64,000 nt of DNA from Neelides folsomi (Eukaryota; Arthropoda; Collembola; Neelipleona; Neelidae): contig JAQGBZ010000208.1 of assembly GCA_034687125.1 (NCBI GenBank), positions 46,999 through 110,998 of the forward strand. The letters run 5' to 3'. Shown piece after piece: positions 4,301 to 63,934 of this stretch (position 1 is its first letter; every line of letters starts with the position of its first letter). Under the pieces are notes generated by a model. The model was not told where the DNA came from. It saw nothing but the letters and a program-made list of their open reading frames with translations, and made no database searches. The position numbers and the translations under genes were made by a program.

Positions 4301-7300
4301 ATAAATTCCTCGTTTCTGCTGACCGGGACGAACTCCGAAGACAAGTTGATGAATTTGAGCCAACTTATCGTGGAATTTTATCCAAAGAACATGAAATTAT
4401 TATGATTTTGAACAAAGGAAAAGATTTGCTTTCTAAATTAACTCGCAAAGCTGATCATCGCCCGATTCAAACTGCCATTGAGAAAGTTACGAAAGCATGG
4501 GAGAAATTAAAACAAGAAGCTTCTAATCGTCATTCTAGACTTCAAACTGCAACTGAACATTGTAGGAAATATGATCGTGCACGTGACAGTTTCATTAATT
4601 GGCTCGAAGGTGCTGAGAAGAAATGTGACAATTTGAAATTGTCCCAATTTAAGAAACCTGACATTGACAAAGCACTTAAAGATCTTTCGGCCCTTAAGAA
4701 TGACATTTGGCGGCATACTGGAGATTATGAAACAACAAGGAATCTCGGTGAAACTTTCTTAGCTGCGACTGACAAAGACAAGGAAGGAGTTAAGGCCGAA
4801 TTGGAAGATTTGAAAGAAAGATGGGAAGGTTTGAATTCTGACATTCATAAGAGAACTTTGGATCTTGAAGAAGCTGCAGCCAAACTCGGGGAATTTACCG
4901 ATTCTTGCCGAGATGTGAAAAATGCCTTGGGAAGTTGCGAAGACAAATTGGCTTCACATGACTCTTTGGGTGAAGCTGGAAAAGATCCCAAATTCCTTCA
5001 AAGAATTAAAGGTTTATTGGATGAAGCCAAGAAGCTGGAAAAACCATTGGAAAATGTCCGAGCTCAAGGAGATGATCTTTGCAATAGAGCCCATGGACAC
5101 AATTGTGATTCTCAACATATTCAAGATGCTGTGGATGATTTAACGGATCGTTTTGACACTTTGAAGGCCAAATTGGGAGATCGAGCTTCTGATTTGGAAT
5201 CTGCTAAAGAAGCCATGGCCCGATTCAATGAAGATGTTAAAGCCATTTTATCGGATCTTTCAGATCTTGATAAGGAATTGAATGGGATGAAACCACCAGG
5301 GAGAGATATACCAACTGTTAAAGGACAAATTAGAGAAATGGAAGCATTTAGTCAAAAACTTTCTAAGAGGAAGGAAGATGTTGCGAGAGCGGCTCATGCG
5401 GCTGAAGATTTAATTAAGAAAGGATTTGCTTCTGATGTTAAAAGCACAAAGGATACAATTTCTAACATGCAGAAACAAGTATTGAACCTTGATAAAAAAG
5501 CAAGGAGTCGAGAGGAAGATCTTGATAAGACGCTTGCAAGACTTGAAGCATTTTATCATTTGCTCCACAATACAGATGAAGAAATTGATGAGTTGGTGGA
5601 TGCTGAGAGGAAATTTGGAGGGAGAGCTGTTGGAGGAGACGTTGAATCCATTCGGGCTACTCAAGCTCAATTTAAAGAATTCAGAGCTAAATATGTTGAA
5701 GCTGTTGGGAAGTCGGTGGATGAATGTAATAAGAACGGCCAGGGATTGATCCAATCTGCACATCAAGGAGTTTCAACTTCAATTCTTGAAAAGGATTTAG
5801 AAAAATTAAATGAGAAGTGGAATGCTCTTAAGGAAAGGATTAATGAACAGGAAAGGAAACTCGATGGGGCTTTACTTCAATCTGGAAAATTTCAAGAGGC
5901 TTTGGCTGGACTTGACAAATGGTTGTCTGACATTGAAGAAATGGTCGCGAACCAAAAACCACCATCGGCAGATTTCAAAGTTGTCAAAGCTCAATTACAA
6001 GAACAAAAGTTTTTAAATAAAATGTTGGCCGATCGACAGCCCTCAGTTGCTTCTTTGTTTAAAATGGGACGAGAAATTGCGGCTTCTGCTGAACCTGCAG
6101 AGAGAGCTCATATTGAAGGCCAAATGGCGGATTTGGGAGGTCGATATGATAATTTATGTGAAGGAGCCAAAGAAAGACAGAAGGCTTTAGAAGATGCCAT
6201 GAGAGTCGCAAAGGAATTCCAAGACAAATTGGGCCCACTTTCTGAATGGCTCGATAAAACTGGGAAGAAACTTAAAGACATGAGTTTGGTCCCAACTGAT
6301 GAAGACAAAATCCAAAAGAGGATTCGGGAACACGATGCGCTTCATGATTCAATTTTGAGGAAACAACCTGACTTTAATGAATTGGCTGATATTGCTTCGG
6401 CTCTGATGGATCTTGTGGGAGATGATGAAGCGGCGATGGTGGCTGATAAACTCCAAGATGCCACGGACAAATATGGGAGACTTGTGGAAGAATCTGAGGC
6501 TTTGGGAGCTTTGCTTAAAGGATCCAAAGCAGCTCTTCGTCATCTTGTCTTGTCTTATGAAGAACTTGTAGCTTGGATGGACTCGATGGAAAAGAGACTC
6601 AATAAATACAAAGTTGTTTCTGTCCATAAAGATAAACTTCTTGAGCAAATGGACCAATTAGTGGTAAATTATTAAAAATATTTACATTGAATTAATACTT
6701 AAATAAATGCTAAATTAAATAAATAATAGTACAGGATGGACCACAAGTTCCTATCTTTTTTATTAGATTTGTAATTTAAAAAAGAAAAGCAACTTATGGC
6801 CCACCCTGTAGTGTTCTTTTTGAAAAGTTTTTCTTATTTAAAAAAGAACACTACAAAGTAAACGGGCTGTACAGGGTGGGCCATATGTATCTTTCTTTTT
6901 TATATGGCGCACCCTGTATATGTCATTTAAATAATCTTTAAATATTTAATCATTAAATAATTTTATTGTATTTAATTATTATTAATTGATTAGAATTTGA
7001 CTGAAGAAATCAAAGATCATGAAAAACCTGTTGATGAAACTGTTGATGCTGGTCTTGATCTTATGAAGAGCATTTCCAACGAAGAAGCAATTCAACTTAA
7101 AGACAAACTTGATTCTCTCCAAAGACGCTTCCAAGACATTTCATCTAAAGCTGGGGAATTATTGAAGAATTCTCAAGATGCTCTTCCTCTGGTTAGCCAA
7201 TTCCACGCTGCTCATGAAACACTTTCCGAATGGCTTCTTGACACCGAAGGAGTTCTCCAATCTCTTGATTCGGCCAATCTTTCTGTTCAAGAGAAGGAAA

Positions 7301-10300
7301 TCACTCGACTTGAGCATGAAATTCCCGAACAAAGGAAGTTTTTGGATATTATTAATTTGATTGGACCTCAGCTTTGCCAATTGTCACCTGGCGAAGGAGC
7401 ATCAACCATTGAAGGTCTTGTAACAAGGGACAATCGAAGGTTTGATGCAATTTGTGAACAAGTTCAACGACGAGCTGAGAGAATCCAAATGGCCAAATCA
7501 CGCTCAATGGAAGTTTTGAGCGATTTGGACGATTTGCTCGATTGGTTCCGTGACATTGAAGGTCAATTGAAGGAAGCGGAAAAACCGAGCTGTGAACCTG
7601 ACATTGTTCGAGTCCAATTACAAGAACATCGGGCTTTGAATGATGAAATTACAAGTCAAAAAGTGAGAGTTCGAGATGTTTTGGCCACAGCTAAGAAAGT
7701 TCTCCGTGAAGGATCCCATGGAGAAGACACTGCCATTATTAGGGAGAAGGCTGACGACTTGAGAGAAACAATGGAAGTTGTCACGAAATTGAGCAGCGAT
7801 CGACTTAACGCTCTTGAACAAGCCCTTCCCCTCGCTCAACACTTTTTCGAAACTCATATTGATCTTAATCAATGGATGGATGCCATGGAGGAAGAAATTC
7901 AAGTTCTTGACGCTCCTGCCCTTCGTCCTGACCAAGTAATGAAACTTCAAGAGAAAACTCAAGTTTTTGTTACTGCTGTTAACGAACATCGGCCACTTTT
8001 GGAGAAGTTGAACAAAACTGGAGGAGCTCTTGTTAAACTTTGCAATGAAGACGATGGAGGAAAAGTAGAGGATATTATGGCTCATGATAATGAAAGATTC
8101 AATGCATTGAGAACTATGCTTAAGGAGAAACAACAAGCACTTGATAAAGCACTTCATGATTCTTCACAATTTAAAGATAAATTAGATGGGATGTTGAATG
8201 CTTTGGAATCCACAGCTGAACAGGTCAACAATGCTGAACCGATTTCAGCCCATCCGGATAAAATCAGAGAGCAAATGGATGAAAATAATGGAATTATTGA
8301 TGATATGAAAAAGAGAGAAGATGCTTTTAACTCTGTTAAGAAACAAGCTGCAGAAGTTATAAGTCGAGCTGCAAACAAGTCAGATCCGGCTGTGATTGAT
8401 ATTAAGAATAAACTCGACCGTTTGAACTCTCTTTGGGATCAAATTCAAAAAGCTACCAAAACCAGAGGAAAGAATTTGGATGAAGCTCTTGCTCTTGCAG
8501 AGAAGTTCTGGGCTGAGCTTCAAGCCATTATGGAAAAACTTGATGCTCTTAAGGACACCCTCAAGAGCCAAGAACCACCAGCAGTTGAGCCAAAGGCTAT
8601 TCAAAAACAACAGGATGTTCTTAAGGAAATTAAGAGGGACATGGATAAGACAAAACCAGAAGTTACTGCTTGTCGGCAAACTGGTCAGAATTTGATGAAG
8701 ATTTGTGGGGATCAAGATAAGCCTGAAGTGAAGAAGAACATTGAGGATCTTGATCGTGAATGGGACAACATTACTGCGTTGTTTGCTAAGAGGGAAGAAA
8801 ATCTGATTGATGCGATGGAGAAAGCCATGGAATTCCATGACACGCTCCAAGCTCTCATTAAGTTCTTGGATAGATCTGAAGAACGTCTCGGAAATTTTGG
8901 AATTATTGGAACGGATATTGATGCTGTGAAGAAGCAAATTAAGGAGTTGAAAGATTTCAAATCTGATGTTGATCCGATGATGGTTAAAGTTGAAGCTCTG
9001 AATAGGTACGTGGTCGATAATATTTATATTTTAATAAATATTTTCATTTTAAAATACTAAATATTAGATTCGATACATCCAAAGTCTACATATTAATTTT
9101 TAATACGTAAAATTATATTTAAGGCAAAAGTTGTAGACTTACATAGTTTTATTTTTGAATAGCATTAAATATTTCACCATCATGCATAGCTCAATACAAA
9201 ATGTGGGCCATAAGTTGCTTTCTTTTTTATGATTTTTTATTTAAAAAATAAAGCAACTTATGGTCCACTTTGTACATTACTAATAAATGATTAGTTGTAT
9301 TAAATATAAGGGTAATATTTATTAAAAATTTGCAATTTTTATGTCATTTAATATTTATAATAATAATTTTTCTCGGCTCCGTTTCTGGACACGTGTTTCG
9401 TTTCAACACAGGACATTGTGGAGGCAAGTTGATGCTTAAAGCATTAAATGGGACATTGTGTTGTTGTTTTTAATGAGTTTCTCGTTTTTATTATTTATTA
9501 TAGCTTTTTGTCATTTCATATTTGTGTCGTTTGTAGAAATATTTTGCATGAGGAATTAACACTTTAAAGAAGTTGGGCGATAATTAAAGTCTTTAAAAAG
9601 GTTAATTTTCAATTTATTTTGTAATTTTTTAATTAAAGTTATTAAAAAATAACTTTATTAAAAAATAAGTTAAAGTAAATATAATTGTCGCCTAATTTCA
9701 TGAGTAAGAAATTAACTTAATGTTTATGTTATTATTATAAACTATAAGTAGTTTTAACTGCACTAGGAAGCTCATAATTGATCTTCCTTGTGTCATTTAT
9801 AATTTTATGTTTATTTGATTTGTCTTTTATTATTTTAATGAAAAATTGTTTTTTAGCTTAAAAGAGAAAGTCATTTGATGAGATTTTAATTAAATTAATT
9901 ATTAATTAGGCAAGCGGCTGAATTAACTGAGCGGACATCACCTGACCAAGCTCAAAAGATCAAAGGACCATTAGGAAATGTGAACCGACGTTGGGATGAT
10001 CTTCTCAAAGGGATCGTGGAGAGACAAAGGGAATTGGAAAATGCCCTTTTGCGTCTTGGTCAATTCCAACACGCTCTCAACGAACTCATGGCTTGGATGG
10101 AAAGAACCAACAAAAATCTTGACACGCTTAAGCCCGTTTTCGGAGATCCCCAAGTCATTGAAGTTGAATTGTCCAAGCTCAAGGTCTTATCCAATGACAT
10201 CGCTGCTCATCAATCATCCGTTGACACTTTGAACGATGCGGGTCGGCAAATCATCGAGACAGAAAAGGGAACTGACGATGCTTCGAAAACTGCCCAAAAG

Positions 10301-13300
10301 CTTGTGGATTTAAATAAGAAGTGGAAAGCTCTGCAGGAGAAGGCCAACGGGAAACAAAAAGAGCTTGAAGATGCATTACGCGAAGCTGTCGCTTTCAATG
10401 GAGAAATCCAAGATTTATTACATTGGCTGGCCGATATTGACGGAGCTCTTTCCACCTCAAAGCCTGTTGGTGGATTGCCTGAAACAGCCGCTGAGCAATT
10501 GAGTCGTTTCATGGAGATTTACAATGAGATCGAAGCGAATAAAGCCAAAGTTGAAGGAGTTTTACAACAAGGAGCTGAATATTTGAAAAGATCTACCGAA
10601 GGAGCCGCAACCAATTTACAACACAACTTGAGAACATTAAAACAACGATGGGATTCCGTTCTCAATAGAGCAAATGATAAGAAGATCAAATTGGAAATTG
10701 CTCTTAAAGAAGCGAATGAATTCCATGCTGCTGTTCAAGAATTCATTGATTGGTTGACAGAAGCTGAAAGATATTTTGCCAATATTGAACCAGTTTCTCG
10801 AGTGCTTGACAGAGTTTTGGACCAAGTTGAAGCTCACAAGGATTTCCAGAAACAAGTGTCGGCCCATAGAGAATCAATGCTCAATTTGGAAAAGAAGGGA
10901 AATCATTTGAAATATTTTAGTCAGAAACAAGATGTGATTCTCATTAAAAACCTCCTTATTTCTGTTCAACACCGTTGGGATCGCGTTGTGTCCAAATCTA
11001 CTGAAAGAACCAGGGCTTTGGATCTTGGACTGAAGGAAGCTAAAGAATTCCATGATGGTTGGTTCTCATTGTGTAAATGGCTCGATGAGGCTGAGAAGAG
11101 TTTGGACGATTTAACAGCAGCGGCTGGAAACAACCCGGCTAAGATTAAAGCTTTACTTCAAAAGCATAAGGAATTCCAACGGACTTTGGCTGCTAAACAA
11201 CCTCAATATGATCACATTATGAAGGTTGGGAAGGCTTTGAAGGAAAAAGCTCCCAAAGTGGACGAACCTATTTTACGCCAAATGTTAACGGACCTTAAGA
11301 ATAAATGGAATGCTGTTTGTAATAAGAGTGTGGAAAGACAACGTGGGCTTGAAGAAGCTCTTTTAAGATCTGGACAATTTAAAGATGCTCTACAAGAACT
11401 TCTCGACTGGCTTAAGACCATTGATGGGCTGTTGGTAGATGATTCTCCGGTTCATGGAGATCTTGACACGGTTTTGGCCCTTATTGAACAACATAAGAAA
11501 GTGGAAGAAGAACTCCACAAGAGACGTGCTCAAATGGATGACATTATTAGGACAGCTGAGGAAATGATGGAAACAGCCCCGCCGGATGAGAAACAAAAAC
11601 TTCAAGCTCAAATTAGAGATGTGAAGAGTTCTTTTGATAAGGTTAAGGCCAAGTGTGAAAGTAGAAGTAGAAGACTCGAACAAGCACTTAAAGAGGTATG
11701 CAATAAATCATTTGAAATTCAATTTAAGTTTGGTTAGGATATGTTTTCTAATATTTATTTTATTTCAATTTTATTTTTTGGTTGATTTTATTTGTGGTTT
11801 TTTAAATTGTGCTGATTTTGATCCGAGCCAAAGTAATTCTGGGAATAAGCCGGAATAAGTAGGAATGGTTATTCCTCCTTATGCCAACTTTATTCCTCGC
11901 TATGCCCGGAATAAAATCCGAGCCAAAGTTAGGAATAGCGCTATTCCCACAAATCTAGAATAGCTTATTTGCCACTCCTTGGGAGCGTTCCCGGGAAGGT
12001 TCCCATGCCAGAAACATGATTCCCGAGAACGCTGGTGGGGACACATGTATGGGGGCGTTCCCATGAACGTTCCCGGGAACGCATATATGGAAATATATGG
12101 GAGTGTTCCCGGGAACGCTCCCATATGGGTGCGTTTCCGGGAATACGGCATGCCTGCTTATACCAGTCATAAGTTCTAATATGCCGATAAAAGGTGCGTA
12201 ATATGTAAGATAGGAAAATATCTATGGAAGAAAAATATATTTATTGTATGGCTTTGAAATTAATATTAATAATTTACTTGTCAAATTTCAATTTACACAT
12301 ATGCCTTATATCCAAATGAAGAGGGAATCATTGAGATTAAGTAGTGTGTAAATATTAGTCATATGGAAAGTTTTAATCTTTCAATATTTTTCGTCGTCAT
12401 TAATGATTTATTTTTTTGGTTCGTATATGAATTGGAATTCCATAATTCCACCTAACCTATACTGGAGTTTTCACAGAAGTATTTCCGTATTAAGCAGATT
12501 TCACAACTCAAGATTAGAGTTTAAAAAATATATTTAAAAAAAGTTGAAAATGGATTTTAAGTTAAATTAAACATTTTTAAGTCAATTGATATATTAACTG
12601 TCAATTATTTATCATATACCTATGTTTAATCCAATTAGTTAATTTCACATAAAAAGTGATTGAGATTTGGGTGAAAATAAAAAAAGAACTTTTTATGCCT
12701 AGCATATTCCCAAATTCGTGCTAAAGTGCACCGGGACTAGCTTATTCTAACTTATGCTCAAAATCATTTTGGCACGAATTGGAATAAGAAAAAGTTATTC
12801 TCTCTTATTCCTCGCTATCCCCGGACTCTGTCCCGGCCGTTTATTAATTGTAATTGTTTTTGATTGAATTATGAAAGTTTCTCACTTTATTTTTTCTGTG
12901 ATTTAGGCTGAAAAACTTCACAAAGCTGTTCATATGCTTCTTGAGTGGCTCTCTGATGCTGAGATGAGATTACGTTTCTCTGGGACTTTACCTGAAGATG
13001 AAGAATCATCGAGGAAACTTCTTGAAGATCACGAAAAATTCATGAAGGAACTTTTGATCAAAGAGCGTGAGAAAGACGACACGATCGAATTAGCAAAGAG
13101 CATCTTGGCCAAAGCTCATCCTGATGCAATTAATGTTATCAAACACTGGATTTCAATCATTCAGTCAAGATGGGATGAAATTTCTTCTTGGGCTAAACAG
13201 GTGATTATTTTTTTTTTCTATTCTGAACCGAATAATAATTTTTCCATTAAAACCCTTATTATTAAATAAATAATAAGGGTAATAATTAATAATAAATAGA

Positions 13301-44103: not shown

Positions 44104-45330
44104 GGAGACAACGCCGGACTTGAATTAAATGTACTTCCCTCACAAACACACTCACTTGTCAAAACTGACCACGGCCGGAGGACCCAACCACCATAAAGAT
44201 CTCTTCATTATTTACAGCCAAGTTCCGGAAGGCTTTTTTGAGGAATTTCAACTGCTGCGGTCTTCGACGGCGTCGCCCGAGGATTAGGAGGCAAACGAGA
44301 TTCAGATCAGTTTCCAGAGGACCCTCGTCATCTCTTCCAATGCATACCATAAGGACAGAAATTACAATCGCCCAAAGAATATGAAATCTTAAATACAACA
44401 CTTCTCTATATATTAAATATATGTTAAAATGATACAATCCTATTACATACACGTCTACTCTATTTGAATAATAAATGTTATGTATTTCGTTAAATATGGA
44501 TTTCATTTTGAATTACATGAATACACATATTTTATACCTATATATGTATTTGGTATTTGTCCTCGTCATTTACTAGATTATTTCATAAATCATCCACCCA
44601 TTTTAAATACAGATTTTGTATAATTAATTTAATGTAAATATTATGTTTATTTTCAATAATTTTTCAAAAACCTATCGTCTAACCTAACCCCTTTCTTTGC
44701 ATTGATAATATTAATAGAATCTTAATTATATTTATGTCAAAATTAATTTTATTTAATTCAAAATTATTGAAAATGTTAAACCAATCATTAATTAATCATT
44801 TATTAAAAAATTAAAACTTTAATTAAAACATTGTATAAAGGAAGAACGTGAAGATTCGGGGTGGGATGAGAAATTGATATGGATAATTCAACTAAACCAA
44901 TGGTAAATGCGCGCATAGTGTATATATTATCATCCGGAATTGAACAAAAGAGTTAAATGTTAAAGTAAAGTTTAAAGAACTGGCTATATGGTTTAATTAA
45001 CCATATGAAATGTTGTTTAGTTTAAGTTTAAAATGGGTTAAATATGGATATAAGAGTTTGAAGTAATGCATAGGTTAAATGAAAACATGGGAAGGATGTG
45101 TCAATAGCCGCTACAAACGTCTACTTTAACGTGAGTAAATTTCAATGTTTATAATTCGGATTAAGGTTTAAATTAACTTTACAAATTTTTTAAATCAAGG
45201 TTAAAACAATTATATTATCTTAATTACGCGCAAAAACATACCTGAATATTATAATAACAACTTTATTTGTAAGTTTACTATTTTAATAATGAACTACAAT
45301 TTAATTACCTTAAAATGTATTTTAGAGAGA

Positions 45331-47169
45331 ATGGAAGGCCAGGAAGGCTACAGCCGTTTTCACACCCATCACGGTTCAAACATTATTCTTGAATCGGATC
45401 AGACTGTTGCAGTGAGGAATAGTTCGTTCGCGAATGCTCTGACATTCAGCGAAAAACCTCTTGAGCCTGGAGAAATCTTTTTGGTCGAGATTGAAAACAA
45501 TGAACCGGGATGGTCAGGTCATATGAGAATTGGACTCACTCAAATGGACCCAAATTCTTCTTTCAGACTCCCACTTTATGCACTACCTGATCTCGTAAGA
45601 GTCAAAAATAAAGAATTATTTTTAAATAAAGAAATTAACAATTAAGTTTAATTTTTACTTTAAAATGTTCTAATGATATTTATTTTTCTAGGTGTCGATG
45701 GGCCCTTGTTGGTTATTTGCAATAACCAAAACCCACAATAATATGTATGAAGGACGTCAGCAAAATCTCCAAGTACTTGATGATTATGAGAATTTGGGAA
45801 ATTTGGACGAGCTCAATTTGCAACCTGAACCTGAAGAGCAACAAAGGAAGATCGTCATTATTCGTAAATAAGTTTTATATTTAATTATTAATAATAATAA
45901 TTAATTAACACAATTATAATTACCGTCATTGGCCCAAAGATATCCTGGGACATCTTTAAATTTTTCGGACCCGGATATCTTTCGGGCCCCGGATATCTTA
46001 AAATAAATTTACAAAAATGGAATAAAAATTCCCTTTTCTCCTCCGGAAGTACCAAGCTTTTTGCCCATATTGTTAATTAAAATGATATGCAATTCGATTT
46101 AAACGACATTTTTATATATGTTTATGAATGTTCTATTTTAATTTTAATATAAAATCAACAGTAAATCCCTTTTTGGGCATTTTAAATATAAATATTAAAA
46201 GGGAAATGGGATAAAAATGTAACTATACGTTGTATATTATGCGCTTTTGCTATCAACATACAATATGTACCCGGGTACCCGGACATCTTTTGTGACCCGG
46301 ATATCTTTAAATAAAATTGTTTCACCCCCCGGATATCTTTCGGTCAATGGCGGTACGTATATTTGTAATATGTATAAACTTACTATACTCTATTCCATTT
46401 GAGAAGATTATTGAGAATTGAATCATGTTACTTGACAAGTCATTAGAAATTCAAATAAACCGATATTATTTCCTGTAGAAATTATTTCCGGGTGACATGA
46501 CATTCGATTGCCCGGTCAAGTAACATGATTCATTTCTCAATAATCTTCTCAAATGGAATAGAGTATAATTCTAAGATTTAAATTCAATAAAATATTTTTT
46601 AATTAAAGGTGAAGGAAATCTAGTTCAAACTCCACGAGGATTTATCCACGCTCAAGTACTTTACGGTGAAGATAAGAAAGACGAATCTCAGCTGCTCCCA
46701 ACAGACGTTGGTTCTCGTATAGGAGTCATGTTCGTCCCCAATTCGCAACAAAACAAGGCCGATATGCATTTTATTATTAATGGAGAAGATCAAGGCCCGT
46801 GCGCTCAAGATATACCTTACCGCGATGCTCCTCTTTACGCTGTCGTTGATGTTTATGGATCTACAAAGAAAGTCAGAGTTTTGCAACTTCATGGTAAGCA
46901 AAATTACCTTCATTTTTATTTTTTAATAATATTACCCATAAGTTTTTAAATTAGATTTTAACCAATATATTTTAAATGTACTGTAATAAGTGTAATAAAA
47001 GTAATAATTAAAAATATTTTATTTTTAAAACGATTAATTTTTTATTTTAGCAACGTCGCTTTCACTCAAGACGCTCTGTCGTGAAGTTATTATTAAATCC
47101 ATCAAGACTTCAGGTGTAAATTCGCTTCCGCTTCCTAAAGTACTGAAAAACTACTTACTTTATAAATAG
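45331..47169 (+). CDS. NEURL2: NEURL2-like protein (neuralized repeat + SOCS-type box)
   Basis: Four exons (45331-45594, 45692-45863, 46609-46893, 47051-47169) join in phase to 279 residues, close to the length of vertebrate NEURL2. The NHR domain begins [18 protein letters not shown] and continues [20 protein letters not shown], then [20 protein letters not shown]. After a variable stretch come [16 protein letters not shown] and [20 protein letters not shown]. The C-terminus [16 protein letters not shown] fits the SOCS-box helix that recruits elongin B/C in the vertebrate protein (the Ozz E3 ligase adaptor). The start at 45331 lies just inside an exon with an acceptor (ttttag) six bases upstream, so a leader exon exists upstream. 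The second intron carries two unrelated inverted-repeat elements. Confidence 0.88.
45921..46355. mobile_element. TA-flanked non-autonomous element with GGATATC motifs
   Basis: The left end TACCGTCATTGGCCCAAAGA (then TATCC) pairs in inverted form with the right end (GGATATCTTTCGGTCAATGG then CGGTA). TA lies at both edges, suggesting a Tc1/mariner-like MITE of 435 bp. GATATC-type motifs followed by CTTT are repeated at least six times near both ends. No open frame. Lies in a NEURL2-like intron. Confidence 0.8.
46384..46567. mobile_element. Long-terminal-inverted-repeat element, 184 bp
   Basis: The first 52 bases, starting TATACTCTATTCCATTTGAG, are matched with very few differences by the inverted last 52 bases, ending AAATGGAATAGAGTATA. 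The loop is about 80 bp. This is a MITE-like foldback structure directly after the element at 45921-46355. Confidence 0.85.
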
Positions 47170-47842: not shown

Positions 47843-48951
47843 TTATTCAATTTGCTTCAATTCATTTTCACCTCTGAAGAATTTGCTATATGTCGGCCAT
47901 TGTTTCAAACAAATGTGTCTTCCATATCTTATATTTTTATAAAAATTTTCCGATGCACATTCTGTACAATTGTCCGTTGATGTTTTTTCATATGCAAAGG
48001 GCGGCAAACAAGGCTGGCAATGATAATTAATGAAGGAATGTCCAGCCTTACAATCGCAAATTCCATTAATGCACTCCAACCCAGACGGACAAACGTCTTC
48101 AAATTGGCCAACGTTCTTTGCACATTTGTCTCCATGTTTTAAATGCCAAACACATGTGGAATTTCTCTTCATTTTCCCAATTGAACAAAGAGTATGACAT
48201 GAAAAAACCCCAAGTTCATTTGCCATATTTTCATAATCATTATTGTTCAATTCGTCAAAACTGTCCCAAATGGATTTCCAATTGTAAATGTCAACAATCC
48301 GATCGTAATGTTTGATCATTGTGCTATGCCAACTGTCTTTGGCTTTTCTTCCTCGAGAGCAAATGCAATTTTTCATAGGATGAGGAAGAGACACTTTGTC
48401 TTTTTTAACACAATTTCTGAATTGAGTTTGTCCTTTGAATCCGGTAAAGCACTTTGTTCTCCAAGCGTACATGCATTACAAAATACATTACATTGCTTCA
48501 TAAACATCATCATGAGGGCCATCAGGATTGGGAGATTCTTCAGCGCAGAGATAATCTTTGTAAATTGGTAGGCAAAATGCTTCCTTTCTTCTTTCTTCTC
48601 CCTAAATATATATAATACATTTGTGTATTTGTATACCTAATACCTATGATTTTATAATATGACTGATATATGATTTATATAGTAGATAGTATACATAGTA
48701 GATAGATAGATTTTTACATAATAGGTAATGAAAGGTATGCCGTATCCTTTATAGAAATCACAAACACATCTGGAAGATTCGGAGTGGTTAACTATTTGTT
48801 CGAGTCTTTGGCATGAAAATCCGAGTTCATGATTACATTCCCTTGTTATGTTGACTCCACATAGTGCAAATGGTTCGAGAAAGTCTTGATTTGAACTTAT
48901 TTCATTTAAAGATGCTAAGATGCTGATGAGCCAAATACAATTATATTTCAT
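47843..48951 (-). pseudogene. Cysteine-rich secreted protein gene, frame interrupted
   Basis: First exon (48951-48718): a signal-peptide-like start MKYNCIWLISILASLNEISS, then a Cys-rich segment with FALCGVNITRECNHELGFSC and CVCDFYKGYG, ending before gtaaaa. The second part starts near 48590 with EAFCLPIYKDYLCAEESP and continues to EAM, where two in-frame TAA codons occur within five codons. The same frame then reopens as WRTKCFTGFKGQTQFRNC, MKNCICSRGRK and finally an EB-module-like block, DVCPSGLECINGICDCKAGH, to the stop at 47843. The mixture suggests a secreted multi-domain protein of unknown function. The double stop is either a degenerating gene, an unusually short or unrecognised intron, or an assembly error. 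Confidence 0.55.
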
Positions 48952-49591: not shown

Positions 49592-49636
49592 ATGAAATTA
49601 TTATACCTACATATATGGTACAATTTGTTGGTAATA
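49592..49636 (+). CDS. Candidate signal-peptide exon of the ankyrin kinase
   Basis: ATG opens [15 protein letters not shown], a Lys followed by a hydrophobic stretch, and stops at a phase-0 donor (ata/gtaagt). The next exon starts in phase 0 at 50864 after attatag with [17 protein letters not shown], which has two N-glycosylation sites. A TATATATA tract lies about 10 bases upstream. This is the best leader I can find, but it is short and unproven. Confidence 0.4.
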
Positions 49637-52600
49637 GTAAGTTTTATATATATTATGTATTAACGGATTATTTTTTCAATAAATATTCCTAACCGCACAA
49701 CCACTTGCATCAAATTTGGAATAAAGACATCATTCCTCGACTTACAAATATGTATGCAATAATACATTTACTTCTTAATTAATTTTCACACGAAACTAGA
49801 CATAATATCATAATAAGTTATAACATTTTAAATCAATAATATTATTAATTTGCTTTCATTTTTATAGCTAATTCTTTTAAAAAAATGAAAAATAAAACTA
49901 ACTGGATAATTGTCCAAATTCATGTTTATTTAAAATCTATTATAATACTAAACTTTAAATTAACTTAATATTACCAGTAGTCATTAGTAATACCCAGAGT
50001 AACATATTACCAGGATAGGAGCTTTACGATTAGAGTAGCAGCATGTACTCGAGTACGTACTCATGTACTATGTACTCATGTACTCAGTACATTGGGCATG
50101 GCTATGTACTCACTCAGTACATGAGTACATACCATATATGGACATACAAGAGTACATAGAAGAGTGCTAAATTTGAATTTATGTACTCTTAAGTACTCCT
50201 ATGTACTGGCATTACTTAGGTTGATTATTGCTATGTACTCATGTACTATGTACTCCTCAAACGGCATCTCTATTGATGATATATACTCACATTTGAAAAT
50301 TATTTAAATTTGTATTCGATATTTAAGTGTTCTTTAAATTTGGAAGTTATTGTTTTTAAATTTTGCTTTGCTTGTAAAAATGCAATCTATATTCATTTTG
50401 TGTATATTTATACAATACAGTATCATTGTCTGTATTCAAATCTATTTGTACAAGAGGGATGTTGAATGTTGATGAGAAACCAAAGCGGAAAGTTTTCTCA
50501 AAAATTAATTTGAATCAGAAGGAAAAAATCGTTAAAAGTGAATTTTATAGGAAAAAATAAATTATTTTAAAATCTGAGGAAAGATTAAATAATAAGAAAA
50601 TTTTAATATTATAAATAGTTTGTAACTTAAAAGTTTTACTTTAGTTTGTCAAAATGTTGTGTATGAGAAAACAGAATAATTGACAAAATATTAAAGATTC
50701 GTTTATTTTTGAAAAATATTAATAATGAATTTTAGAAAAACTAAATATTTTTCTTTATTCGAATTTGTATTGTCCATTTTAATAATTGAAAATGTAATTA
50801 CAGTTAAAAAAATATTTAATTTACATTGATTTAAAATAAATAAAAATTGTTATTTAATTATAGGTTAGATGCAATGTTTCTATTTACGTTAATTTTACAA
50901 TTACAACGGAAGATTTTGAAATCTTAGACAAAATTAAATATATGATTAAAGAAAAGGTTAAATTAGATTATAATAATATCTTTAGCAAAGATCCTTTAAT
51001 AATTTCTTTAAAAGTTCAAGATTTTCAATTTTCAAAAGAATTGATAAATAAAAACCTTGGAATTAATTCGACCGATCAATTTAATTCTGCCCCTCTTCAT
51101 TATGCTGCATTTTACGGTAACGAAGAAATTGTGAATTTAATATTAATACACAAGGGAGATGTAAATGCTAAGGATATTAATCAAGTCACACCATTACATT
51201 TGGCCGCAACTAACAAAAATACGAAAGTTGCAGAATTGCTTTTGAAAAAAAGTGCTAAAATTGATGCAAATGATAAATATTGTTTTACACCATTGAATTA
51301 TGCAATTACCAAGGGAAACTCCGAAATGGTTAAGTATTTAATAAGTCAGGATTCCAATGTGAATTTACAATCGAGCAATTACGGAACATATTTACACCAA
51401 GCGGTTGGATTTGGAAACCTTGAAATTATTCAAATTATAATACAAAATGTTGGTGACATCGATTTCATAAATTTAGAAGGACAAACGCCTTTGCATTTAT
51501 CAAGTGCAATTGACTTTGGACTATTCGAAGTTGCTGAATTATTAATAAAAAATGGAGCCAACGTCAACATGAAGGATTCAAAATTTTCAAGCCCTTTGCA
51601 TTACGCCTGTTTAAATGGTAATATAAGAATCGTTGATTTATTACTACAAAACGGTGCTAATGTTAACGAAATTAATCACATATATAACACCCCATTATCA
51701 ATTGCCTCCATTAATAGACATTATGAAATTGTTAAATTGCTTATTAATTACAAGGCTGATGTTAATGCTGTTGACTCCAATCTGGTATCACCATTAATGC
51801 ATGCCTCACACTTGGGCTATTTTGACACTGCAAAACTTTTGGTAAATAATAACGCCGAAGTGAATCTAAGAAATGTATGGCAATTACCAGCATTATATAA
51901 AGCAATTACAGCGGGCCACACGAAAATTGTAAAATTATTATTAGATAACGGGGCGTATGTTAATATTGGTGACAATCGAAGTTGGTATCCTTTGCATCAC
52001 GTAGTGGGTAATCTTTCTGTGGGAAATCGTATTCAAATTGTTAAATATTTAATTGAGAAAGGAGCAAATATAAATGTAATTAATCAATATCGCCGAACAC
52101 CTTTGCACATTGCAGCAAAAAATGGATTGGTTAAAGTTGGAAAACTCCTTATAAGAAACGATACAAAAATAAATGCCTTGGATGTAAATAAAGAAACGCC
52201 ACTACACTTAGCTGCACTTTATGGACATTATGATTTTATAAATTTACTCCTACAAAATAGTGCCGAAATCGATATTGTTAACACAAACCAATCGACTCCT
52301 TTACATTTGGCGGCATTCAATGAATCCATTCGACATCTTGAATGTGTCAAAGCTTTATTAAAATACAATGCAAGTATAAATGCATTGAATATTAATAAGC
52401 AATCACCATTGATCTTGCAATTGGTCCATGGTGGAATCGACACACCAAATGAATCTTTTGAAATATTAAAATTATTAATCTCACATGGAGCTGATGTTAA
52501 TTTACAAGATAATTCATATATATGGGGTTCGGTATCGGAACATTGATATTGTTCAATTCTTATTGAAAAATAAAGCAAAAATAAATGTTTACACAAAGGA

Positions 52601-55158
52601 AAAATTAACTCCTTTGCATTATGCAATATTTAAGGAAGATAGCCAAATGGCTAATTATTTGTTAGCAAATGGAGCCGAAGTAAATGCAAAAGATATCTTT
52701 GGTTCAATTCCGTTGCATATTGCTTTGGGCCTAGAAATGAATGAAATTGTAAAAAATTTATTGAATTATTCATCTGAAATCAATTTTAATGGACAATTTG
52801 GATGGACACCTTTGCACTTTGCGACAGCACAACAAAATATTGAAATTTTCAAAATTTTGATCACAAAAGGAGCGAATGTATATGCTCAAAATGATTTAGG
52901 AGAAACGTCACTCCATTTTGCATCTGTGAACGGAAATTTTGAAATAGCAAAAATATTGTTAGAAAAACATGCAAATGTTAATGCTTTTGATTTTAAAAAA
53001 CATCAAACTCCACTTCATTGTGCTTTAACGGTTTTTAGAAATAATTCATTAGAATTTTGTAAATTATTGTTAGAAAATGGAGCGAATGTTAAATCAGTTG
53101 ATATAAATCAAACTACACCGTTACATTTAGCTGCCAGTGGACCATTTTACGAGATCGTCAAAATGTTAATTAAAAATGGTGCATTAATTGATGCAGTTGA
53201 CATTAATCAAAAAACACCTTTGCATTTAGCTGCACAAAATGGGAATTTTAACATTGTTCAATTATTAATTAAAGAGGATGCGGATTTCGATATGGTTGAC
53301 TCAAATGGGAAAAATGCTTATGATTTAGCATTTTCGAATGGTCACATTAAAATTGGAAAATTTATTCTTGACATTAGGAGAAACTCTTTGGTTATTATTT
53401 CTTCAACTGCAGCTTCAATTGTATTTATATTTTTGATTTGCATTATAATTTTACTTGTTGTGAAATATAAAAGGAAGAAAACCGAATTGAATCGATTTTT
53501 AAATGAAGAAGAATTGCAAGCATTTAGAGAAGGGGAACACACATATGCAAATATATTTAGTGACAAAATTGTGAAATATAACAACTCTTATGAAATTTCG
53601 TTTAATCAAATTAAATTAGGTAATAATCGTATTATTTTTAATCTAATAAGTAATTTCTAACGATTAATGAAAAATTTTAATTTTGAAGGCACAAATGAGT
53701 TGGGAACTGGATGTTTTGGGCGTGTTATTGAAGGAGAAGTTTATATTGGACATGAACAAATTAAAGTTGCAATTAAAGTTGTTAAATCCGGAATTGAACT
53801 TGTTCACATAAAAACTTTATTGGATGAATTAAAAATAATGTCAACAATTGGAAAACATGAAAATATTGTTTCTCTTGAAGCTGCCTGTACAGAAAATATC
53901 CACAAAAGTGCGATTATAAACATATTTAATATTCTTACAATATCGATTTTTTAATAAAAAATTATAAATCATGATGAATTAAAATTAAATTAATTTAAGA
54001 TGAAGTGTTTGTCGCTGTTGAATTTTGCCAAAACGGAAGTTTGTTTGATTATTTTAAATCAATAAATGAAATGATTCAAATTGAAACTGATAAATTACAA
54101 TCGTAAATTGAAATATTTTAAATTTAATATTGCAATATACATATTTGATGTTAATGCTCTGTAAATGCTTAAATTACTTTAGTTTACTAAAATTGTGCTT
54201 TTTAAAATATGTATTTAGAAAGTTTATTGAATGGACTTACGGGATTGCAAATGGAATGAATTTTCTTGCGAAAAATAAAGTCAGTAGATATATAAATCCC
54301 TCATATTTTAATCAATTAGCATTAATAAAAAAAATTCATTATTTTTAGGTTATACATTGTGATTTGGCTTGCAGAAATGTTTTGTTAACTTTTTCATATA
54401 AAGTCAAAATTTGCGATTTTGGTCTATCAAGACAATTATTAAATGATTCAACATATTCTAAAAAATCTAAAGTAATTATTTGCTTTCTTTAAATAATAAA
54501 TATTTAAACTAATTTATAAATTGAGCTTTGTTAACTTTTCCCAAACTAACTTAAAGTGTTTACTACCATGGAAGTGGATGGCAATTGAATCTTTGGAATA
54601 TTTTACATTTTCTGAAAAATCTGATGTTTGGTCTTATGGAATCACATTATGGGAAATGTTCTCTTTTGGCAAATCTCCATATCCAGGAATAAATTGGACC
54701 ACTGCTTTTGTTGAAAGACTCAAATTAGGAATGAGAATGCATAAACCAGAAAATTCTCCCAACAACATGTATTAATATTAAATTGTTTCTAATTCATAAT
54801 TTAATACAAGATTCTTAGAAAATGATGGTAAAATTATTTGAATCAACCATATTACAATAACATATGTATTTAGTTACAACTTGATGTTAGATTGTTGGAA
54901 AGAAAATCGTCAAGAACGTCCAACATTTGAAGAAATTTTAGTTCGATTTGTAAATGAAAACGTATCTCTTCAAATTTCTCAAGTAAGTATATAACAACAT
55001 AACATTCTTATATCATAAGTATTTTAAGTATAAGTATATCAGTTTATCAGTACATAATGTAATAAGGCAACTTAGGTATATAACTAAAAATTAATAAACA
55101 AATTTTATTTAACCAATTTCCATAAATAATTGATTGAATTTAGGATATACTTGGATGA
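49592..55158 (+). CDS. Ankyrin-repeat transmembrane receptor tyrosine kinase
   Basis: Proposed exons: 49592-49636 (short hydrophobic leader), 50864-53619, 53689-53907, 54000-54102, 54219-54279, 54349-54471, 54557-54768, 54874-54982, 55144-55158. The large exon encodes about 22 ankyrin repeats (TPLHLAA..., LLL.NGA.VN), then a hydrophobic helix near 53385-53465 followed by KYKRKK, one TM segment. The kinase domain has glycine loop [13 protein letters not shown] lysine, DELKIM glutamate, HCDLACRN catalytic loop, DFG, and [20 protein letters not shown] with [14 protein letters not shown], closest in style to PDGFR/VEGFR-class tyrosine kinases. All kinase junctions keep phase. One frameshift occurs in the ankyrin part near 52510-52540, and there Ank spacing is several residues short. 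HRD is changed to HCD and APE to AIE. The leader exon is tentative. Confidence 0.8.
50030..50262. repeat. GTACTCATGTACT minisatellite-like array
   Basis: Irregular array of about a dozen TACTC/GAGTA and ATGTACT words, many forming GTAC-centred palindromes. It lies in the intron between the candidate leader exon and the ankyrin exon. Confidence 0.75.
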
Positions 55159-55711: not shown

Positions 55712-57110
55712 AGGACCTTTTTGGAAAGCCGGAGAAAGTCCTTAAAGCGGTGCTCGCTGGTTCGAGCGCTTGTGGCGACGCTGAAGCGAGTTGGGGACGA
55801 CGGAATCCTCATGCACTCCTACGTTGTGAAGGAATTAAAAGACAAACTGCCTTCCGGAACACGGACATTGGCGGACTTTTCCCTTTGGCTGAGGAAGGAG
55901 GCAAGTGCGGTTAGCGACATGTTACTCATTGTTTCAGGATGGCCCGAACGGGAAAAGGAAAGTTCAGATAATCACTCTCGGAAGAAGATTTGGCGGATCC
56001 AAGGAAACCGAGGCTAAATCCTGCGACCACTGCCGCGATAAAGACCACTGCGATGGATTCCGAAAATTGGTCGTGTCGAATCGTTGGAAGCTGGTGAATG
56101 AGAAGCGGCTGTGCTCCAAGTGCCTGACCCACGGACACGACAGTCAGAGTTGTAAATTTGGCGGGAAATGCAGCAAGTGCCAAGTGCGGTCCCATCATTC
56201 GCTTCTCCACAATGAGCAGAAGAAAGCGGACTTTCCCCAGACGGTGGGTCATGCGAGGAAGAGCACGTTGGACGAGTCAAAGGATGTGCTCCTTCAGATT
56301 CTTCCTGTGAGGCTGAGGAATGGGAACATGATGTTGGACACTTTTGCTTTCCTCGACAATGGGTCCACTGTCACGTTGATAGAGTTCTCTGTGGTAAGGC
56401 GGCTGGAGCTCCATGGAACCAAAGACCAACTCTGCCTCGGAGGGGTCAATGGAATTCGGATTTCACAGCCGTCGGAGCGAATAGATCTTGAAATTGCAGG
56501 GCGGGACGGAAAATTCCATCGGATGCGCGAGGTGCGCAGTGTGGATAAGTTGGCCATTCCTTCCCAGACGGTGGGGAGGAAAACGTTGGCACGCTACCCG
56601 GAGCTCCTTGGACTTGAAATTGCTGAAATGGTGGATGCCCGGCCGACGGTCCTCATCGGGCAGGACCCGGCTGACTTGCTTCGTGTCAAGGGGAGCATCG
56701 GTGTGAGCTGTGCAGAAGGACTGGTTGCCTCAAACACGATGCTCGGCTGGACCCTCCATGGGAATTTGGCGTTAAAGAAGTCAAGGACAAGGACGGATTT
56801 CACTTTTTTTTATCTCCCGAATTTTGGACGTCAGGCCAGCAGCAAAAGATTAGTTTATGTGTGAGCATAAACGGGGCGGAGAGTGTAGTATCGTGTTTAA
56901 AGTGTAATGTATTGTCATAGGAATTAAGTAACGAGTTTTAGTTTAAAGTTAAAAACAATTTGTGATCATTCTGTCATTGTATTTTGTCCGAATCAGACCT
57001 CCATTTTTTCTCTCAATATAAACGTTCCTTTTCTCCGTTGTCCCCAGTTGACATCGCTGACCTTTTTATTTTCACTGTTCATTTTCGCATTTGGGAATTG
57101 GACTTTGAAG
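55712..57110 (+). mobile_element. Truncated BEL/Pao LTR retrotransposon
   Basis: GC-rich island in AT-rich DNA. Gag remnants appear in two frames (LFGKPEKVLKAVL near 55715; MHSYVVKELKDKLPSGTRTL from about 55810). The frame from about 55905 carries zinc-knuckle-like CDHCRDKDHCDGF, LCSKCLTHGHDSQSC and CSKCQVRSHH, followed by an aspartic protease with DNGSTVTLIE, the BEL/Pao gag-protease order. Reverse transcriptase, RNase H and integrase are absent. A purine-rich tract (ggggcggagag) ends at 56883 and is followed by TGTAGTATCG, a plausible start of a 3' LTR whose end I could not place. Frameshifts make it non-functional. Confidence 0.82.
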
Positions 57111-61162: not shown

Positions 61163-63340
61163 TCAAGACATTTCAATGCACATGACTATTGCTGCCATTA
61201 AAATTAACCCAGCAAAAAACAATAAAACAGTTGTTAAAGAATAAATTCCAATTGCGGTTTTTTCATTCATCAACTCCATTAAACCCCGCCTATTGTTAGG
61301 AACGGCTTTGGATGAAACACTGTAATTTTGATGTATTAAATAATTTACAAGGTTTACAAAATTTAAATAGCTTTTGTGGGAATCTATTTTCTGATAATAC
61401 AAATAATTAATTTTAAAAAAATTAGAAATTCCTGATTCACAAATTGAATGAATTGTATTTACATAGGCGTCGGAATATAAATTCCTTTCTATAACCCAAG
61501 GTATAATTTCATATTTTGTATTTCGATCAATGTTTCTAATTACAAAAATATCATTAAACATTGAAAATAATTTCTCATAATAATTAATTTTTAATTCAAA
61601 ATCTATGAAAATTAAGTTCTGGGGAAATTTTTCTTCAAAATAATAATTTTGATTTGATCGAATATCAAAGACTAAAGTCTCTCGGTTTTTATTTAAAGAA
61701 TCAAATTTAATACAAGTTATAGTTCTTATAAAAATTGAGAGTTCATTTGAATAAATGCCCATTCTTTTATGGTCATTAAACAATGTTAATATAGGTACTT
61801 GTTTTATATCTGAATAATTAAGATTATTCGTCCCTTTTTCAAATCCATATTCTTTGAGACAAGAGGTTGTAAATAGAGGAAAATTAAAAGATGGAATTTC
61901 CTGAATTGATTTAGGAACCCTTGGCAATATAACTGTTGAAATGTCTTTAAAAAGTCCGCTTTTATAAAAAATGCTAAGAAACATCACAAGCAAAATAAAA
62001 ATTCCAAATATTGTCAGAACAATTCCTGGAACTTTTTGTTTTACTAATCCCAAAATCAACCTTTTTCCTTGGTCAATAAAAGAGAAAAATATCAAGGAAA
62101 AATAATTGATGGATTCAATTATCAAAAAATTCCAATTTTTACGATAAATTGTAATTATAGGTAAAGCCAAACAAATTAAAATTGGTGTTAACAAGGTCAA
62201 AACCCACGTAGAAAGGTCAAAGGGAACCAAAAGTGTGAGCCAATTAAAAACCAGTTTTTGTTTGGCTAAAATAATAATAAATGAAAATTTTTCATATCCT
62301 ATGTCTATAGGGATCATTTCGTAATTCAGAGATTCAATTGAATATTGCAAAGGAAAGAGAAATGGCGAATAAATTGAATTGTAATATATGGAACCTGAGT
62401 AGATTTCATCATTCCGAAAAGCTTCTTCATAATAAGATAAATTATATTTCATTATTAAAACACTTAGTGTACAAAGCCTATCATAGTACATTGTCTTGCT
62501 ATTACATTGCGACCAATTAAATTTCCTCATATATAAATCATTAATATTTATGAATTTTCCTTTAAACCTTCTAATAATTTCTCTTACAAAATATCTGAGG
62601 TTTTTTACTGTCAACTTTCCTTCAAATGGGATTCCATCAATGAAACTTTTCGAATTCATGTTATCTTGTAAAACTTGTTCAAAATTAATTGGATGTATTG
62701 GCTGAATGTATATTGAAAATTTTATTGGCAATCCTTTTCCCTTTGAAATTAAAACAATTGAGGTTGAACGGACATAACTACTTAAATGCAAATGCTTCAA
62801 TGCATGATACTCTGAATAATAGCTTAGGTCTTGATTAAAAGATAATATTGTAAACATTGGGTTTATTAACGATGTTAAATCGTATCTAATTTGCATTAGT
62901 TGGTTTGATACATTATTATATTTTAAATCGTTTTGAGCCCCAATATGAAAAATATAAAATATCGCTATGCATTTCAAATGTTTCGTTTTGTAATAAGCTT
63001 TAGATTCAAATCTGCCAATTGTTGAATTTTTTAATTTCAACAACAATTTTTTGCCATTTTCATCTGTGGCGTGTAAAACTTGTGAAACATTGGATTGAGA
63101 AAAATATTGATTGTACAAATCCGAAAGATTCAAATCAGGTTCATTTAAATTCCAATTTCCAACTAATATATTAAGAAATTGATGGAATTGTTTTAAGTTT
63201 ACATCAATGTTTTTAAACATTTGATTGTGATACACAATTTTAACATTAGCGTCAATTTGAAATATTGTGAATAAAAGGAAAAGGACAAAATGTTTTAATA
63301 TCATTTTATTTTTTATATAAAGCGAATATTTTTTTATCAA
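61163..63340 (-). CDS. Divergent ionotropic receptor (IR)-like ligand-gated channel
   Basis: Single-exon gene of 725 codons. The second Met (63304) is the better start, because MILKHFVLFLLFTIFQIDA forms a signal peptide. A long extracellular region with several N-glycosylation sites is followed by LVPFDLSTWVLTLLTPILIC (TM1, about residues 371-395), a pore-loop-like segment (about 404-424), TM2 with LVMFLSIFYKSGLFKDIS (about 438-470), a second extracellular lobe, and TM3 near residues 690-720, ending MCIEMS. This is the ionotropic glutamate receptor layout used by insect IRs. The glutamate-binding residues of classic iGluRs are not evident, as in most divergent IRs. A chemosensory role is inference. 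Intronless structure differs from the multi-exon genes elsewhere in the window. Confidence 0.7.
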   Translation of the reverse strand: MIKKYSLYIKNKMILKHFVLFLLFTIFQIDANVKIVYHNQMFKNIDVNLKQFHQFLNILVGNWNLNEPDLNLSDLYNQYFSQSNVSQVLHATDENGKKLLLKLKNSTIGRFESKAYYKTKHLKCIAIFYIFHIGAQNDLKYNNVSNQLMQIRYDLTSLINPMFTILSFNQDLSYYSEYHALKHLHLSSYVRSTSIVLISKGKGLPIKFSIYIQPIHPINFEQVLQDNMNSKSFIDGIPFEGKLTVKNLRYFVREIIRRFKGKFININDLYMRKFNWSQCNSKTMYYDRLCTLSVLIMKYNLSYYEEAFRNDEIYSGSIYYNSIYSPFLFPLQYSIESLNYEMIPIDIGYEKFSFIIILAKQKLVFNWLTLLVPFDLSTWVLTLLTPILICLALPIITIYRKNWNFLIIESINYFSLIFFSFIDQGKRLILGLVKQKVPGIVLTIFGIFILLVMFLSIFYKSGLFKDISTVILPRVPKSIQEIPSFNFPLFTTSCLKEYGFEKGTNNLNYSDIKQVPILTLFNDHKRMGIYSNELSIFIRTITCIKFDSLNKNRETLVFDIRSNQNYYFEEKFPQNLIFIDFELKINYYEKLFSMFNDIFVIRNIDRNTKYEIIPWVIERNLYSDAYVNTIHSICESGISNFFKINYLYYQKIDSHKSYLNFVNLVNYLIHQNYSVSSKAVPNNRRGLMELMNEKTAIGIYSLTTVLLFFAGLILMAAIVMCIEMS

Positions 63341-63934
63341 TTTTCACAGTAAAATAATAAACTGATTTGATTGTTTCAGTTTTAACAAAACATTTTGTTG
63401 TTGGTAAATATTAATAAAGCCATGAAAGCGTCTATAGCTTAATGATGAGTTTGCTTAAATCCCTTATAAATAATAATAGTATTTTAAATAACAAATAAAA
63501 TAAAAAATGGATAATCAAAAATAATTGGTTTTTAGTAATATATTATTCAAGCTTAGGTAATTATGTTTATAGTAATATAGATTTACATTATCATTCTTTT
63601 CGTTGAAATCTATGGGTTATTTATTTAAGTTTTTGAAGATTTTCTTGGTGGTCGGCCGGTGGCCACTTAAGGTTGCTTGAAATTACACGCCATATTATGA
63701 ATTTTTTTACGCTTTATTGAATTAAATAATCACACAAATGACACAAATGATTAAAAAGTTTGTTAAAAGTTGAAAATAAATCATAATCTAAAAAATATTA
63801 AATTAATCCTTAAAAAATACAGAATAAAATGAATAAAAAAGAGAAATTATTATTTGAATCTTAGAAAAAATTAAGGAAAAAACGTTTCGCGGACTTATAA
63901 AATTTTGCAAGTCGTAAAGTTTAAAAAAAATAAG
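63341..63934. other. AT-rich spacer next to rRNA sequence
   Basis: No gene recognised. If the terminal 66 bases are the 3' end of 28S rRNA on the minus strand, this stretch starts as rDNA spacer and then becomes the upstream region of the IR-like gene. Confidence 0.5.

Follow-up and report, generated by a model that had tools for sequence, protein, structure and literature searches.

A gene on the forward strand of a 64,000-nucleotide stretch of Neelides folsomi DNA (contig JAQGBZ010000208.1; the whole stretch is called the window below) raises the question of whether ankyrin repeats, which normally work inside cells, can serve as the ectodomain of a receptor tyrosine kinase. A first-pass annotation had read positions 49592–55158 as such a receptor and had suggested that its repeats form an adaptable binding surface. 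The present analysis assigns a probability of roughly 0.8 to a reading based on sequence comparison, namely that the window gene is a frame-broken member of a large receptor tyrosine kinase family with a membrane-anchored ectodomain of 12–35 ankyrin repeats.

A family of ankyrin-bearing kinases

The 75.1-Mb genome assembly (840 contigs) was searched with two peptides of the window gene. The exon-7 peptide yielded 74 matches, 43 of which (including the window's own) had E ≤ 1.6e-17 and were 51–100% identical. The peptide covering the transmembrane (TM) helix and the juxtamembrane region yielded 34 matches. Twenty of these lay within open frames of 393–1495 amino acids (aa), and ankyrin repeats were present in all 20 frames. 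The arrays consist of 33-residue repeats. For all family counts given below, 28 loci were read, comprising the window copy and 27 from elsewhere in the genome.

Trefoil domains together with ankyrin repeats were found in 16 of the 28 loci, so that trefoils preceded the array in 16 of the 22 ankyrin-bearing loci. Five loci carried ankyrin repeats without trefoils (the window copy, L009, L020, L026 and the decayed L028), and one (L014) carried ankyrin repeats while its 5' end lay off the contig. In a further five (L019, L024, L030, L035 and L036), no ankyrin repeats were found upstream of the kinase, and the last locus, L027, was a TM remnant.

The most complete arrangement was observed in 11 of the 28 loci (L010, L011, L015, L017, L021, L022, L023, L025, L031, L032 and L033), where a signal peptide, three trefoils, 12–28 ankyrin repeats and the TM helix were encoded in one uninterrupted exon. 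The corresponding exon of L016 was also open, with two trefoils and no Met ahead of them, and the frame was broken in the remaining four of the 16 trefoil-ankyrin loci (L012, L013, L018 and L034). Pfam was applied to five trefoil-bearing exons (L010, L011, L025, L032 and L017) and recovered three trefoil stretches in each, with E values from 1.4e-25 to 1.8e-18. By hand count, 47 of the 66 trefoil (PF00088) matches in the genome fell in the 16 trefoil-ankyrin loci, and three more lay on C699, a contig which also bears a family kinase.

The kinase exons could be traced as far as exon 7 in 10 of the 11 open single-exon loci, and kinase exon sizes recurred across the family: a 219-nt exon in 21 of the 28 loci, a 123-nt exon in 20 and a 212-nt exon in 18. 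This bears on the alternative that two genes lie side by side, one for a soluble ankyrin protein and one for a short TM kinase. The frame break of the window copy would suit such a pair, as would the five kinases with no ankyrin repeats found ahead of them. However, the second piece of the window array and 19 further loci each read from ankyrin repeats into the TM helix within a single open frame, and in most of these the kinase exons of conserved size come next. The single-exon signal–trefoil–ankyrin–TM arrangement likewise argues against two separate genes, which are considered extremely unlikely.

Five contigs (C532, C563, C682, C206 and C259) each carried two or three family members, some of them no more than 10–20 kb apart, a distribution that fits local duplication.

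Topology of the ankyrin array

Each of the 11 open loci begins with a hydrophobic N-terminus, behind which come Cys-rich trefoils, the array, one further strongly hydrophobic helix, basic residues and the kinase; the in-exon signal peptides were called by hydrophobicity. Trefoil domains are disulfide-rich and extracellular. Since a signal peptide and trefoils precede the array, and a TM helix, basic residues and a kinase lie behind it, the array is predicted to face the outside of the cell. The predicted domain order therefore gives good support, at the level of the family, to a receptor tyrosine kinase whose ectodomain is made of ankyrin repeats. The first-pass proposal of such a receptor thus holds for the family, through its 11 single-exon loci, and has to be qualified for the window copy, whose own frame is broken.

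A cytosolic array, with the TM call wrong or inverted, would agree with the usual location of ankyrin repeats and with the uncertain signal exon of the window copy and L020. It is nevertheless very unlikely, because 11 loci have, within one exon, a signal peptide and three trefoils ahead of the array and one hydrophobic helix behind it, because basic residues lie behind the helix, and because the kinase requires the cytosol. The single-exon arrangement speaks against a cytosolic array in precisely those members.

Two compositional signs of an extracellular location were also considered and dropped. The arrays contained 236 sequons where 160 were expected by shuffling, and 44 Cys in 14375 array residues compared with 151 in 6676 residues of the kinase part. 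A control of six loci from another ankyrin family of the same genome gave 9 Cys in 3645 residues and 92 sequons against 28.6 expected, so both signs were as strong there or stronger.

Besides this failed control, several observations weigh against the receptor reading. For the window copy, L009, L020 and L026, which have no trefoils, the topology is deduced from homology and from candidate signal exons, and the signal-exon scan gave no convincing candidate for L020. In L011, the first kinase exon alone was clear, and its contig held no exon-7 match. The ankyrin frames of L012, L013, L014, L018 and L034 were broken, and stops occurred in the kinase reading of L013 (2), L018 (2) and L028 (4). 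The stops in L010 (2) and L015 (1) fell in a badly aligned stretch at an exon border and may be aligner errors. To these is added the broken frame of the window copy itself.

The window copy

In the model of the window gene, all eight introns have GT-AG borders, and the ankyrin array is followed first by the TM helix and then by a complete tyrosine kinase encoded by exons 3–9 (Table 1). Pfam Ank matched both frame pieces of exon 2 (E 3.6e-97 and 4.6e-60), and a custom repeat hidden Markov model (HMM) counted 23 repeats, of which 14 fall in the first piece and 9 in the second. The first-pass count of about 22 repeats was thus nearly right and the array is real, but the break in its frame had been missed. 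The single hydrophobic helix with a KYKRKK stop-transfer was recovered as described, and so was the complete kinase in small exons. PF07714 (PK_Tyr_Ser-Thr) matched the spliced kinase with E 3.5e-80 over positions 5–256 of 258, and VAIK, HCD, DFG and the catalytic-loop Asn are all present. No trefoil match was obtained for the window copy, either by Pfam on the window frames or in the genome-wide trefoil search.

Table 1. Features of the receptor kinase gene in the window.
Feature	Coordinates	Strand	Description
Exon 1, candidate (a)	49592–49636	+	Signal-peptide-like, 15 residues, phase-0 GT donor; competes with 50725–50793
Exon 1, candidate (b)	50725–50793	+	Signal-peptide-like, 23 residues, phase-0 donor, followed by a 70-nt intron
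Exon 2	50864–53619	+	N-terminal region, 23 ankyrin repeats, TM helix, most of the juxtamembrane region; broken frame
Frame overlap	52479–52546	+	Site of the frame break, within one ankyrin repeat; from reading frames
TM helix and stop-transfer	53385–53480	+	Single helix at 53385–53462, then KYKRKK; from hydrophobicity; predicted model fuses it with the last ankyrin helix
Exon 3	53689–53907	+	Glycine loop LGTGCFGRV, VAIK
Exon 4, kinase	54000–54102	+	
Exon 5, kinase	54219–54279	+	
Exon 6	54349–54471	+	Catalytic loop HCDLACRN (non-RD), DFG, activation-loop Tyr
Exon 7, kinase	54557–54768	+	Its peptide was the query of the paralog search
Exon 8	54874–54982	+	C-terminal end of the kinase
Exon 9	55144–55158	+	Final codons DILG, then stop

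The frame that starts at 50864 ends in a stop at 52546, and the array resumes in another frame, open from 52479. The ankyrin-only relative L009, with an open frame of 996 aa, was collinear with both pieces across the break: residues 15–549 of the first piece aligned with 23–620 of L009, and residues 12–379 of the second with 627–992. Because L009 is open and collinear at this point, the lesion in exon 2 appears small and local. An intron bypassing it was considered, but the sole candidate seen by eye, of about 49 nt, would cut out part of a repeat and was rejected.

The break may reflect a mutation that disables the gene, an allelic variant or a mistake in the assembly, and the window copy may accordingly be a pseudogene of an otherwise functional family. 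The odds of this are judged to be about even. The break itself points that way, as do the broken relatives L012, L013, L014, L018, L034 and L028, and birth-and-death turnover is typical of large recent families. Against it, every splice site fits the consensus, the kinase reads through with its catalytic residues in place, and exon 2 is otherwise open; the break is also short and could reflect an allele or a faulty assembly.

The first exon is ambiguous. At 49592, where the first-pass annotation had placed the gene start, a candidate signal-peptide-like exon with a phase-0 donor is present, but its 15-residue form fell below the hydrophobicity cut of the signal-exon scan. The competing candidate at 50725–50793 shares its geometry with the candidate signal exon of L009, which consists of a 60-nt exon (MNILHLYYILLFFIITKIQF) followed by a 62-nt intron in phase 0. 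Between both candidates, a short repeated motif (catgtactcatgtact) was noted at 50045–50260 on the + strand.

Class and catalytic loop of the kinase

Among the best 60 solved relatives of the kinase (2358 sequences matched), 59 were VEGFR, KIT, CSF1R or PDGFR; two of the CSF1R entries also name FGFR1 chimeras. The top solved relative was a tandem EGFR construct, with two copies at 134 bits each. Judged by these sequence matches, the kinase falls in the class III/V group (VEGFR/PDGFR/KIT/CSF1R), which in arthropods goes by the name PVR. The juxtamembrane pattern of the family, YN..YE......L.IG, also resembles that class.

The catalytic loop was covered in 24 of the 28 loci and was of the non-RD type in all 24, reading HCD in 22, HGD in one and YCD in one. 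Other kinases of the same genome (L001, L002/L005, L003, L004, L007 and L008) carried HRD, and L006 carried HAD. In the midpoint-rooted kinase tree, 23 rows including L006 were split from three outgroup kinases (100/98), and the 22 rows without L006 grouped together (97/91).

Three of the kinases without ankyrin repeats (L019, L024 and L036) nested inside the family tree. The combined trefoil and ankyrin label requires two changes on the tree, so the ankyrin array may have been gained once or more than once. The five loci L019, L024, L030, L035 and L036 are same-family kinases with multi-exon upstream regions, and are candidates for an older form. No immunoglobulin (Ig) domain exceeded the threshold in five exon peptides of these ankyrin-less relatives, with one sub-threshold match at E 0.019. 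Where class III/V receptors have an Ig-type ectodomain, the family has ankyrin repeats, with or without trefoils. No SH2 domain was matched by Pfam in the window frames scanned or in seven paralog ankyrin exons.

A search for the PDGF domain gave three matches in the genome, two of them over the cut-off; in that search, no ligand expansion matching the number of receptors was apparent.

Constraint and variation among recent paralogs

Six recent paralogs, 84–87% identical, were compared. Their ratios of nonsynonymous to synonymous substitution (dN/dS) were 0.33 for the signal peptide and trefoils, 0.49 for the linker, 0.42 for the ankyrin array, 0.61 for the stalk and TM helix, 0.14 for the juxtamembrane region and 0.38 for the kinase. 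With values of 0.14–0.61 across all regions, these six copies are under constraint and have been kept as proteins. Gap blocks in the array measured 31, 101 and 158 residues, close to one, three and five repeats.

Amino-acid differences peaked at repeat positions 13, 14, 2 and 3. A set of positions (2, 3, 5, 13, 14 and 33), the target-binding set of designed ankyrin repeat proteins (DARPins), was named before the test. The replacement-to-silent ratio (pN/pS) was 0.84 at these positions, 0.46 at other exposed positions and 0.28 in the framework, and the counts at the set differed from those at all other positions with p 2e-9. DARPins are described as carrying randomised residues on their concave repeat surface (PMC8229355, PMC8683736).

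Two results temper this picture. Compared with other exposed positions, the set reached p 0.054, and positive selection was not significant in the six paralogs: positions 10, 13 and 14, chosen post hoc, gave a pN/pS of 1.58, with p 0.063 in a test against neutrality. The adaptable binding surface proposed earlier has moderate support, the gain and loss of whole repeats and the replacements at presumed target-binding positions speaking in its favor.

An ordinary PVR-type growth-factor receptor, in which ankyrin repeats and trefoils act as a spacer without variable binding, would be compatible with a class III/V kinase and with the lack of significant positive selection. This alternative is regarded as unlikely, since 43 close kinase-exon matches stand against three PDGF-domain matches and variation is concentrated at the presumed target-binding positions.

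A possible mode of action

For the ankyrin-ectodomain receptors, it may be envisaged that the concave ankyrin face binds extracellular ligands which differ between paralogs, and that ligand-driven clustering would release the juxtamembrane region and switch the kinase on. The non-RD loop, the turnover of the arrays and the small number of PDGF/VEGF-domain genes hint at receptors that monitor variable ligands, perhaps of microbial origin, and not at growth-factor sensing of the classical kind. Non-RD kinases have been linked to innate immune signalling across kingdoms (PMC8463890). The function would be recognition of variable ligands, possibly in immunity; the immune role is an analogy, which counts against it.

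The passage from the array to the membrane differed between members. The gap between the last repeat and the TM helix was 4 residues in the window copy and −2 in L009. An AF2 (AlphaFold2) model covering the last repeats together with the TM helix, with a mean predicted local distance difference test (pLDDT) score of 79.5, showed one helix (269–330) running from the last repeat through the membrane. If this model is correct, such a helix would make a rigid link between array and kinase in both the window copy and L009, transmitting movement of the one to the other. Several features of the model detract from this: it was made without an alignment, the other four models scored 44.5–55.4, and the outer portion of the long helix had a confidence of less than 70. 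Stiff coupling would not be general in any case, because trefoil members mostly have 37–45 residues between the last repeat and the TM helix (14 in L031, 16 in L034 and 20 in L016).

A more far-reaching proposal is made tentatively, and is rated at somewhat less than even odds: in an arthropod lineage, PVR-type kinases may have exchanged their ectodomain for an ankyrin solenoid capped by trefoils, giving dozens of paralogs that vary in repeat number and concave face, signal through non-RD tyrosine kinases and constitute a natural DARPin-like repertoire for immune or self/non-self recognition.

Other observations in the window and the genome

Close to the receptor gene, a Cys-rich frame with an EB module (PF01683, E 2e-5) was located at 47843–48475 on the − strand. 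Just downstream, at 55893–56864 on the + strand, an open frame with zinc-knuckle-like cysteines resembles a BEL/Pao retrotransposon but gave no Pfam match. A frame of about 725 aa with hydrophobic segments at 61163–63343 (− strand), also without a Pfam match, has the look of a divergent ionotropic receptor. On the + strand, the regions 1348–11737 and 45205–45645 hold exons of a giant spectrin-repeat protein (Spectrin E 2.3e-80 at 2683–6675) and a Neuralized domain (E 1.5e-22).

Elsewhere in the genome, six loci (L037–L042, on C235, C662, C517, C369, C365 and C459) formed another family of long and very regular ankyrin arrays, low in Cys and rich in NxT sequons. Mitochondrial genes were found on one contig within a 4.3-kb stretch, with ND2, COX1 (identified by Pfam) and ATP6 consecutive in one frame and COX2 in another; ND2, ATP6 and COX2 were named by eye and are presumptive. 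The frames on this contig were open under the invertebrate code, and also under tables 4 and 9.

Comparison with known systems

A receptor kinase is in itself a known kind of protein. Its ankyrin ectodomain, as predicted from sequence, appears to be new as far as the literature searched extends: no description of ankyrin-ectodomain receptor kinases was found in titles and abstract openings of open-licence literature. Ankyrin repeats outside the cell in a receptor-kinase family would represent a new kind of ectodomain for animal receptor kinases. Should the concave surfaces recognize different ligands, the family would be nature's parallel to the engineered DARPins and might amount to a variable repertoire of receptors in an invertebrate. 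The closeness of the paralogs compared above allows their binding to be compared experimentally.

The nearest known relatives are the class III/V receptor tyrosine kinases (VEGFR, PDGFR, KIT and CSF1R), which include Drosophila Pvr. They share the best solved kinase matches and the single TM helix with the present family. In contrast, they have Ig domains and HRD, whereas the family has ankyrin repeats with or without trefoils, HCD and a very short C-terminal tail.

Ankyrin repeats and a tyrosine kinase also occur in one protein in the Shark/HTK16 ankyrin-SH2 kinases, which are cytoplasmic and carry SH2 domains. Unlike these, the present family has a signal peptide, a TM helix and 12–35 repeats, and yielded no SH2 match in the frames scanned. 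Latrotoxin-type arthropod proteins are secreted ankyrin arrays that act outside the producing cell; they share the extracellular placement of the array but do not form kinase-bearing membrane receptors.

Plant non-RD receptor kinases such as EFR combine a repeat-solenoid ectodomain, one TM helix and a non-RD kinase in the same way, which is a likeness and not a kinship, as EFR-type proteins have a leucine-rich repeat ectodomain and a Ser/Thr kinase where ankyrin repeats and a Tyr kinase are found here. DARPins, finally, resemble the family in their variable concave-face positions, but they are artificial and soluble, whereas the arrays described here are predicted to be natural and anchored in the membrane.

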